This document shows positions 49,183 to 52,909 of a stretch of 64,000 nt of DNA, one piece after another; position 1 is the stretch's first letter; each line of letters starts with the position of its first letter. Made by a program: the position numbers and the translations under genes. The stretch is taken from NCBI GenBank assembly GCA_902617895.1, contig CACMYJ010000003.1:62001-126000 (forward strand), given 5' to 3'. The notes beneath the pieces were generated by a model, which had not been told where the DNA came from, searched no databases, and worked only from the letters and a program-made list of their open reading frames with translations. Source of the DNA: an uncultured Pelagibacteraceae bacterium (GTDB lineage: Bacteria; Pseudomonadota; Alphaproteobacteria; Pelagibacterales; Pelagibacteraceae).

Positions 49183-49259
49183 TGGTGGGCCCGCCAGGAC
49201 TCGAACCTGGGACCAATACATTATGAGTGTACTGCTCTAACCAACTGAGCTACAGGCCC
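49183..49259 (-). tRNA. tRNA with CAT anticodon (elongator Met or Ile2)
   Basis: Minus strand GGGCCTGTAGCTCAGTTGGTTAGAGCAGTACACTCATAATGTATTGGTCCCAGGTTCGAGTCCTGGCGGGCCCACCA; full cloverleaf, encoded CCA. Confidence 0.95.
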
Positions 49260-49356: not shown

Positions 49357-50973
49357 ATGGAAAAATCAAAGGGCAATTTCTTAGCAAAAGAAATAAATAA
49401 AATTTTGAATTTTTATAAGTTAGGTGACTTTCACTCAATTGTGAGTATATCAAAAAAACTTTTAAAAAAATATCCAGAATTTAGTCCACTTTATAATTTT
49501 TTAGGCATAAGTTACAGACAACTTGGAGACATAAAACTTGCTGAGAAAATACTTTTGGAAGGTTATTCAAAAGATCCAAAAAATCCTGGAATATTGACGA
49601 ATTTAGGATCGATTTACAGAATAAAAAAAAATAAAAGAGACTCATTAAGATACTTTGAAGAGTCTTTTAGAATAAATCCTAATGATATTGCGCTTTTAGT
49701 CAATTATGCAAATGCATTAGGTGATTTTAATAAAGTTCAAGATTCAATTAGTCTTTTAGAAAAGGCTAGGCTTATTGACAAAAATAATCAAACCGTACTG
49801 ATCAATCTTGCGAGTTTCTATCAAAACTTAGGAAGATTTGAAGACGCAAGAAATTTATTAATAGAAATTATTCAAAAATTTCCAGGTTTAACAGTTCCTC
49901 ACAAATTGCTTTCCGATATTACTAGATATAAAGTTAACGATAAACATCATTTACAAATGCTTAATCATGCCGAATACATGGATAAAGACAATCAAAAATA
50001 TACCGATGAATTAAAATATCCTTTATATTTTGGACTTGCAAAATCATTTGAAGATCAAAAAGATTATAAAAATTCATTCAAATGGTTAAAAAAAGGAAAT
50101 GATATAAAAAAATTGCTAATTACACAAAATGCTAAAAGATTAAATCAAAAAAATCCAATTGAAAAAGAAATATATTTTTTAAATACTGTAAAAGAAATTT
50201 TTCAAAATATTGATATTACAAAGTACGATAATGAAAACAAAAGTGGAAAAAATTTAATATTTATTCTTGGATTACCTAGATCTGGAACAACATTAACTCA
50301 TCAAATTATTGCATCTCATTCTAAAACTTTTGGCGGTGGAGAACTTAATTTGCTTACCCGCGCAGTATATGATAATATAGATAATCCAATATTCTTGGAT
50401 ATTTTCAAAAAATATAATTTTCAAAAATTAAAAAATTTAGTTGAAAATTATAACAACAATTGCAGAGATTTAAGTAATGAAGGGAAAATTATAGTTGATA
50501 AATCTCCAATGAATTTTAGAATGCTTGGATTTATTAGAATGCTGTTCCCACAGTCTAAAATTATTCATTGTACTCGTGAAGCTAAGGATAACTGTTTATC
50601 CATTTATAAAAATGTTTTTTATGAATCAAATATTCCATGGAGTTATGATATAAGTGATTTAACAACATATTACGGGGAATACAAAAAAATAATGAACTTT
50701 TGGAATACAAAAATGCCGGGTTTTATTTTTAATTCGAGCTATGAGTTATTGGTAAAAAATCAGGAGACTCAGTCTAAAAAAATGTTAAATTTTTGTAACT
50801 TAAATTGGGAAAAAGAAACATTAAAATATTACCAAAAAAATATTCCAATACAAACCTTAAGTATAGAACAAGCAAGAAATCCCGTTTACAAAACATCTTT
50901 AAAAACTTATGAAAATTATTCTGAGTTTTTAAATTTCAATGAAATAGATAAGATAGAGAAAAAATATACTTAA
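49357..50973 (+). CDS. TPR-repeat sulfotransferase-family protein
   Basis: TPR units (PKNPGILTNLGSIYRIKKNKRDSLRYFEESFRINPND); PAPS-binding LIFILGLPRSGTTLTHQIIASH. Confidence 0.88.
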   Translation: MEKSKGNFLAKEINKILNFYKLGDFHSIVSISKKLLKKYPEFSPLYNFLGISYRQLGDIKLAEKILLEGYSKDPKNPGILTNLGSIYRIKKNKRDSLRYFEESFRINPNDIALLVNYANALGDFNKVQDSISLLEKARLIDKNNQTVLINLASFYQNLGRFEDARNLLIEIIQKFPGLTVPHKLLSDITRYKVNDKHHLQMLNHAEYMDKDNQKYTDELKYPLYFGLAKSFEDQKDYKNSFKWLKKGNDIKKLLITQNAKRLNQKNPIEKEIYFLNTVKEIFQNIDITKYDNENKSGKNLIFILGLPRSGTTLTHQIIASHSKTFGGGELNLLTRAVYDNIDNPIFLDIFKKYNFQKLKNLVENYNNNCRDLSNEGKIIVDKSPMNFRMLGFIRMLFPQSKIIHCTREAKDNCLSIYKNVFYESNIPWSYDISDLTTYYGEYKKIMNFWNTKMPGFIFNSSYELLVKNQETQSKKMLNFCNLNWEKETLKYYQKNIPIQTLSIEQARNPVYKTSLKTYENYSEFLNFNEIDKIEKKYT

Positions 50974-50982
50974 ATTTCAAAT

Positions 50983-51057
50983 TGGTGGGCCGTGTTGGTT
51001 ACGCTCCAACTACCCCTGCAATGTCAATGCAGTACTCTACTATTGAGCTAACGGCCC
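50983..51057 (-). tRNA. tRNA-Val(GAC) with noncanonical D- and T-loops
   Basis: Minus strand GGGCCGTTAGCTCAATAGTAGAGTACTGCATTGACATTGCAGGGGTAGTTGGAGCGTAACCAACACGGCCCACCA; all four stems pair, encoded CCA. Confidence 0.8.
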
Positions 51058-51058
51058 T

Positions 51059-52909
51059 TTAACTTTCTAGAAAACTTTTTAGTTGCTTTGATCTACTAGG
51101 GTGTTTTAACTTTCTAAGCGCCTTCGCCTCTATTTGACGAATTCTTTCCCTAGTTACAGAGAACTGCAACCCAACCTCTTCAAGGGTATGGTCTGTATTC
51201 ATGCCAACCCCAAAACGCATTCTTAAAACTCTTTCTTCTCTTGGAGTTAAGGTTGATAAAATTTTTGTTGTTGCTTCACTTAAATTTGATTTAATAGCTT
51301 GTTCAAGAGGAGCAAGAGCTTTAGTATCTTCAATAAAATCTCCCAAACTACTATCTTCTTCATCTCCAACAGGTTTTTCAAGCGAAACTGGCTCTTTAGA
51401 AATCTTAAGTACTTTTCTTACTTTATCTAATGGCATTCTTAATTTCTTTGCTAATTCTTCTGGAGTCGCTTCTCTACCAAACTCACTTAAAATCAGTCTT
51501 TGAGTTCTAACTATCTTGTTAATTGTTTCAATCATGTGAACTGGTATTCTTATTGTTCTAGCTTGATCTGCAATAGATCTAGTTATTGCCTGCCTTATCC
51601 ACCAAGTAGCATAAGTAGAAAATTTGTAACCCCTTCTGTATTCAAATTTATCAACTGCCTTCATCAATCCAATGTTTCCCTCTTGAATTAAATCTAAAAA
51701 TTGAAGACCTCTATTTGTATATTTTTTTGCTATTGAAATTACTAGTCTAAGATTAGCTTCAACCATTTCTTTTTTTGCGATACGAGATTCTTTTTCACCT
51801 TTCTGTACTCTGCTAACTAGTTGTTTGAATTCTGTTACTGAGAGACCTAGTCTGTTACTTATTTCAATTAATCTATCTTTAATATTTTTAAATTCAACTT
51901 TATATTTTTGAAAGAATTTCTTCCAAGTTTCATTAGTATCTAAGAAATTTTTTAAATTAGGATTTATTTCATTACCTACATAAAATTTTATAAATTCTTC
52001 TCTCGGAATTTTGTCATTTAAAGCAAGTCTTAACAGGTTACCTTCAAGGGAAATTATTTTACGATTTTCAACATAGTGTTTTTGTACCAATTCTTCCAAA
52101 ACTGAGGGTGATAATTGAAGTGTTTTTATATTTTCCAATATATCGTCTACAATTTTTTTATAATTTTTTTCTTTAGAGGGTGAAAATTGTCTTGATTTTA
52201 AAACACAGTCTAGCTTTTCATTCTGATATTTTGTTAATTTATTATAGTCTTTAGTTAAATTATAAATTGTTTTTAAAACTTTTGGTTTAATTTCAGTCTC
52301 CATCGCTGCAAGTGTTGGATTAAATTCGTCATCTTCAACGTTATTTCCATCATCTTCACTTTGATTATTATTATCTTCAGACTTTTTTTGTTTAGCACTT
52401 TGACCAGTATCTTCGTCTTCCATATAGTTAGTATCTATATCTATAATTTCTCTCACTAAGATCTCATCGTTTTGAAGTTGTTTATTCCATTCAAAAAATT
52501 GTTGAGCAGTTATTGGACTTTGGGATAATGCATTTAACATTACATCTTTACCCGCCTCTATTCGTTTTGCGATTGCAATTTCACCCTCTCTTGAAAGCAA
52601 TTCAACTCCCCCCATCTCTCTTAAATACATTCTAATGGGATCATCACTTTTTTCGATAGATTTACCCTCATCTTTTAATCCATTTTCTTTTTTTCGAAGT
52701 ACTTTAAAGTCAGCTTTTTTTTCAACTAAAATTACTTTTTCATCTAGGATATGTATGAAAGCTTGCTCGAGATTTTGATTCGATAAGTTTCTTTTTCCTA
52801 AGGATTTATTTAATTCTTCATAGGTTATAAAACCTCTATGGACACCTCTGCCCATTAACCTTGCAAATGATTTTGTAATTATACGTTCCACAATAAAAAA
52901 GTTCAGCAT
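51059..52909 (-). CDS. rpoD: RNA polymerase primary sigma factor (sigma-70)
   Basis: [81 protein letters not shown]. Confidence 0.97.

Follow-up and report, generated by a model that had tools for sequence, protein, structure and literature searches.

A tRNA-Val(GAC) with an A18/G55 elbow in SAR11 bacteria and its counterparts among phage tRNAs

Can a tRNA gene that has lost near-universal bases of its elbow still encode a working tRNA? Pseudouridine 55 has been called universally conserved in a review (PMC4810234), and the U55–G18 contact is treated as an invariable element of the elbow (PMC7912444). The window analysed here, a stretch of 64,000 nucleotides from an uncultured Pelagibacteraceae bacterium, carries a tRNA-Val(GAC) gene with an encoded CCA at 50983–51057 on the minus strand, in which neither U55 nor G18 is found. 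ARAGORN and Rfam (RF00005; 53.6 bits, E 1e-8) agree on its position and strand; a gene on the opposite strand was ruled out, as the CCA and both gene callers point to the minus strand. From the 5' end its segments are GGGCCGT TA GCTC AATAGTA GAGT A CTGCA TTGACAT, followed by TGCAG GGGTA GTTGG AGCGTAA CCAAC ACGGCCC ACCA. All 21 of 21 stem pairs form, bearing out an earlier note on this DNA, which had proposed a tRNA-Val(GAC) with folded stems and CCA. The minimum-energy fold is the cloverleaf (-28.6 kcal/mol, z -3.3), and none of 200 shuffled sequences folds as well. The anticodon GAC (51023–51025, minus strand; ARAGORN) lies within the loop TTGACAT, which is invariant across 12 distinct SAR11 genes, and together with A73 it satisfies the definition of a tRNA-Val(GAC).

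The D-loop AATAGTA (51038–51044, minus strand) reads A14 A15 U16 A18 G19 U20 A21, with A18 at 51041 and G19 at 51040, and the T-loop AGCGTAA (50999–51005, minus strand) reads A54 G55 C56 G57 U58 A59 A60. In place of the canonical G18/U55 and U54/A58 the gene carries A18/G55 and A54/U58, and G19–C56 is retained despite both swaps; the earlier note had numbered these bases (A18, G19, A54, G55, C56 and U58) correctly. It had not recorded two further changes. The variable loop GGGTA (51011–51015, minus strand) contains A48, giving A/A at the Levitt pair 15–48 instead of R15–Y48, and position 60, which is usually a pyrimidine in tRNAs, is A. Canonical bacterial tRNA-Val(GAC), as found in the sister SAR11 family (AGTGGTA / TTCGATC), shares the cloverleaf, the TTGACAT loop, A73, G19–C56, U8–A14 and G53–C61, but has G/U at 18/55, U/A at 54/58, and pyrimidines at positions 60 and 48.

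The source genome (1.17 Mb, 22 contigs, about 84% complete) contains 28 further tRNAs by ARAGORN, all with the T-loop TTCRA, including a canonical Val(UAC). The earlier note had reasoned that a second, canonical Val(GAC) gene would mark the unusual copy, if unexpressed, as a pseudogene; none was found in this 84%-complete genome, and complete relatives likewise carry only one such gene. In the long open reading frames of the window, GUU and GUC account for 493 of 874 valine codons, and the tRNA should therefore see heavy use. Its neighbour is rpoD (51059–52909, minus strand), an open reading frame that stops one base ahead of it. With only that base (51058) between the rpoD stop and the 5' end of the tRNA, RNase P cleavage of a shared transcript would define the 3' end of the rpoD mRNA; in most genus members the distance is about 1–35 bases. 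The usual next downstream gene in relatives is tRNA-Met(CAT), which lies here at 49183–49259 on the minus strand and has the normal elbow that the earlier note had ascribed to it. Between the two tRNAs, on the opposite strand, is an open reading frame (49357–50973) with, by eye, TPR-like repeats and a sulfotransferase-like part; in several relatives the two tRNAs are only about 50–75 bases apart. Elsewhere, a partial tRNA-Gly(GCC) copy (L030, G000:C9:27493-27559) is separated from the intact gene by about 1.6 kb; GTGTCGAGATT repeats stand close by, and the copy may mark an integrated element.

Almost the whole genus has the unusual elbow as a fixed trait. BLAST recovered the gene from 11 of 13 genus genomes, with eight copies identical. 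A scan of the whole order, using a Val(GAC) pattern that left the T-loop nearly free, matched 193 of 247 genomes with one gene per genome, and among the matches listed nearly all those from the genus have the T-loop AGC[G/A]TAA. Every match listed from the sister family f2 is of the canonical type (AGTGGTA / GGGTT / TTCGATC or TTCGATT), and other genera of the source organism's own family mostly have the canonical elbow; the unusual type also occurs, away from rpoD, in two genomes of genus g6 and one of g7. A scan of GTDB species genomes gave, among the matches listed, only titles naming Pelagibacteraceae or Pelagibacterales. In a sample of 385 alphaproteobacterial genomes the elbow was confined to this genus, and in 399 sampled Pseudomonadota genomes a tRNA with A18 and G55 was found in the source genome only, by a scan that required a 7-base D-loop and an encoded CCA.

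Among 12 distinct SAR11 versions of the gene, 12 of the 21 stem pairs differ without a single mismatch, the pairs always being standard. In contrast A18, G19, A48, A54, G55, C56, G57, U58 and A60 are invariant (T-loop AGCGTWA in 12 of 12), as are G52–C62 and G53–C61. Compensated variation in the stems alongside constant elbow bases indicates selection on both. The earlier note's proposal of a coordinated elbow change, not decay, gains support from this pattern, from the recurrence of the elbow in unrelated phage tRNAs and from the covariation of positions 18 and 55, both described below.

Two readings would deny the gene an ordinary place in translation. That it is a pseudogene in decay or an artefact of assembly is scarcely credible: near-universal bases have indeed been lost and its Rfam score is among the lowest of the full tRNA genes in the genome, most of which reach about 58–75 bits, but the same loops are present in well over 100 genomes, single-contig assemblies included, no replacement Val(GAC) gene exists among those found, and the compensation of every stem change already refutes decay. 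It is also very improbable that the tRNA serves a non-ribosomal use of valine and is shaped to evade EF-Tu or the ribosome. An unusual elbow in a bacterial tRNA would suit such a role, and the specialised peptidoglycan tRNA-Gly of S. aureus (PMC4810233), likewise a bacterial tRNA with unusual features, provides a precedent. That tRNA-Gly, however, is an extra isoacceptor, and a specialised tRNA of this kind is expected to have a canonical partner that shares its anticodon, whereas the SAR11 tRNA-Val is the sole GAC reader with no canonical twin. Furthermore, apparent reversions to the canonical elbow occur among orthologues at this locus, and the phage version of the elbow is spread over many isoacceptors, as would suit a role in translation better than a single dedicated pathway.

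The apparent reversions come from the rpoD locus itself, where four genus members have a fully canonical elbow: G186 (ATCGGTTA / TTCGATT), G055 (ACCGGTTA / TTCAATT), G168 (ATTGGTTA / TTCGATC) and G217 (AATGGTA / TTCGATC), the last sharing its anticodon and T stems with the unusual form. According to the earlier note, TTCGA in relatives at this locus would betray a sequencing error. A few genus members do carry TTCRA there, but the inference of error fails, since positions 18, 54, 55 and 58 are canonical together in these genomes, as in a switch. A tree of rpoD proteins, built by a quick method with SH-aLRT support, places G055, G217 and G168 inside clades with the unusual elbow, so that these look like reversions, while G186 is unresolved; apparently at least three of the four canonical elbows arose in this way. 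A SAR11 intermediate, G201, combines A18 and G55 with U54/A58. To judge from these sequences, the elbow seems to change either as one unit or in two steps, with 18/55 and 54/58 as separate sets. In the rpoD alignment, the G055 gene (L231, G055:C2:52360-54195) has an in-frame TAG.

The enzymes that modify the T-loop bear on how such a change could be tolerated. TruB is the pseudouridine-55 synthase. Its family (PF01509) is absent from all 20 genus genomes examined, several of them single-contig (G000, G012, G022 and 17 more), and six g7 and g8 genomes lack it too, whereas g4, g5, g6, f2 and 14 of 14 control genomes have it. In 12 SAR11 genomes TrmA was not found and no TrmFO match rose above the cut-off; the sub-threshold TrmFO matches are of about 620–640 residues, the size expected of MnmG. 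U54 and U55 are thus probably unmodified in every tRNA of the genus, as far as gene content can indicate, and in the absence of these enzymes the loss of U54 and U55 costs no modification. Loss of TruB is not required, as two g6 genomes carry the unusual tRNA although g6 has TruB; it is a permissive condition and not a cause.

The same elbow is present in viral tRNAs. A scan of IMG/VR for the unusual Val(GAC) matched seven contigs, six of which hold true tRNAs from four lineages; the remaining match, L252, is not a tRNA. A scan for any isoacceptor added more tRNAs that have AGCRTAA and A18, among them Val(GAC), Val(UAC) and Met(CAT), and ARAGORN identified Ile(GAU) examples on the same viral contigs. 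With looser patterns, in which only positions 18 and 55 were fixed and 54/58 left free, A18 with G55 was found on at least 120 contigs, whereas the entire collection yielded A18 with U55 on six and G18 with G55 on two. Among the matches listed, the A18/G55 set comprises 84 distinct sequences, whose stem pairs are 97% standard and whose anticodons include CAT (37), GAA (8), GAC, TAC and TGG (7 each) and GCC (6); Val, Met, Phe, Pro, Gly, Thr, Ile and other isoacceptors are represented. Like the SAR11 gene, these phage tRNAs combine A18 and G55 with a retained G19–C56, and some also have A54/U58 and A60. Unlike it, most (67 of the 84 distinct sequences among the matches listed) keep U54/A58, the others including seven with A/U and seven with G/G. 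The G54/G58 tRNAs, mostly GGCAGCA, represent a third combination closing the T-loop.

Two named isolates have the A18/G55 type in their tRNA-Met, namely Brevundimonas phage Kikimora (AGTCCAGTA / TGCGAAT) and Erwinia phage Cronus (AGTAGTA / TGCAACT). Other BLAST matches, to Streptomyces phages and to DSS3_MAL1, DLP6, Atu_ph07, RiverRider, DSS3phi2 and phiEa21-4, lack A18/G55, and similarity alone therefore cannot identify the class. BLAST of the SAR11 tRNA, or of the tRNA on viral contig L257, against phage records gave no match. PHROG matches for hallmark genes were weak on three viral loci, so the attribution to phages rests on the IMG/VR label, on dense tRNA clusters and on the two named isolates.

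Positions 18 and 55 covary strongly in viral tRNAs. When ARAGORN was run on all of these viral loci and the tRNAs matching the search patterns were removed, the 591 bystanders comprised 523 with GG and U55, 58 with AG and G55, six with AG and U55, and four with GG and G55 (Fisher p=3e-68). All four of the last group have AGG, which allows the alternative reading A18 G19 plus a further G. Every contig entered the set through one tRNA that fitted a search pattern, in nearly every case A18/G55, and the bystanders therefore overstate how frequent A18/G55 is; this selection should not, however, produce the link between 18 and 55 itself. Kinship among the tRNAs means that the p value overstates the number of independent events. 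A54/U58 is found not only beside A18/G55 but also beside G18/U55 (T-loop ATCGTNA), which indicates two linked yet separable modules, and in viral tRNAs A54 is in most cases accompanied by A60.

How the elbow came to be fixed in SAR11 is less certain. A phage origin is supported by the frequency of A18/G55 in viral tRNAs, isolates included, by its restriction to the source genome among the Pseudomonadota sampled, and by the best core identity between a SAR11 gene and a phage tRNA, which is 91% over positions 8–65 (L187 against L257). As the type is otherwise missing from sampled chromosomes, transfer from phage to SAR11 is plausible. The acceptor stems of that pair differ, however, and the shared loops inflate the figure; only 58 bases are compared, so that no reliable tree can be built and the direction of transfer is not shown. 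The phage connection is probable but unproven. The stronger proposal, that the elbow is a phage adaptation hiding tRNAs from host enzymes that read it, such as modification enzymes or tRNA-cutting defence nucleases, and was later captured by SAR11, appears unlikely, though not negligible: it has no enzyme data behind it, many tRNAs of the same phages retain the canonical elbow, and convergence or host-to-phage transfer would account for the sharing too. Neutral drift to a near-equivalent elbow, without benefit, after loss of the T-loop modification enzymes is a serious possibility, though still a doubtful one. It would follow from the lack of TrmA and TrmFO in the SAR11 tested and of TruB in the genus, and it suits the repeated apparent reversion within the genus; against it, the 28 other tRNAs of the source genome have kept TTCRA, and two of the unusual genes occur in the TruB-bearing g6.

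Whatever its origin, the gene very probably encodes a working elongator tRNA-Val(GAC) that decodes GUU and GUC with an elbow built on alternative tertiary contacts, although there are no data on expression, charging or structure. The sequences show that base 18 and its partner 55 shift together from G18/U55 to A18/G55 while G19–C56 stays, and that the closing pair 54/58 flips from U/A to A/U along with A60 and A48. In the mechanism proposed, A18 may still intercalate and touch G55, and A54/U58 may still close the T-loop, preserving the L-shape; neither geometry has been modelled. Though lacking m5U54 and pseudouridine 55, the tRNA would then undergo normal processing, charging and use, with charging by valyl-tRNA synthetase and ribosomal use inferred from its sole occurrence and its conservation. 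Fixation would have been possible because TrmA and TrmFO are lacking in the SAR11 tested and TruB in the genus, and the sequence itself may derive from exchange with phages.

The recurrence of the 18/55 swap in many phage tRNAs makes it look like a second working elbow and not a broken gene. On balance we favour the view that 18/55 has a second natural form, A18/G55, present in many phage isoacceptors, that a tRNA encoded on the Pelagibacter chromosome has taken it up and alternates between the two forms as one unit, and that no earlier work describes it as a pair that covaries in nature. No report of A18/G55 was found in the titles or abstracts brought up by targeted searches of the open-access literature, which does not exclude a prior laboratory observation, for instance in work on the 54–58 pair in suppressor tRNAs. 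A natural covarying alternative, fixed in a bacterial group that ranks among the most abundant in the sea and common in phages, reveals what the elbow requires and offers a natural test of the roles of m5U54 and pseudouridine 55. Genes of this type may be under-scored by tRNA finders.

A comparable linkage is described in eukaryotic tRNA-Ala(AGC), where R15/A48, A54/A58 and a purine at 60 are linked, a set said by the authors to be absent from bacteria (PMC7566577). By analogy, the movement of purine 48 and purine 60 with A54 resembles that linkage, and A54, purine 60 and R15/A48 co-occur in the SAR11 gene as in this tRNA-Ala and in the eukaryotic initiator tRNA. The set is not met in full, as the SAR11 gene has A15/A48 and A60 but U58 where tRNA-Ala has A/A at 54/58, and no change at 18/55 is among the unusual pairs reported for tRNA-Ala (PMC7566577). 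In the viral loci L253, L258, L270 and L264, ATCGTNA T-loops with A54/U58 and U55 kept occur in phage Ile, Val, Thr and Tyr tRNAs. The same loci carry Glu and Asp tRNAs with A54/A58 (ATCGAAA), a pair known from eukaryotic initiators.
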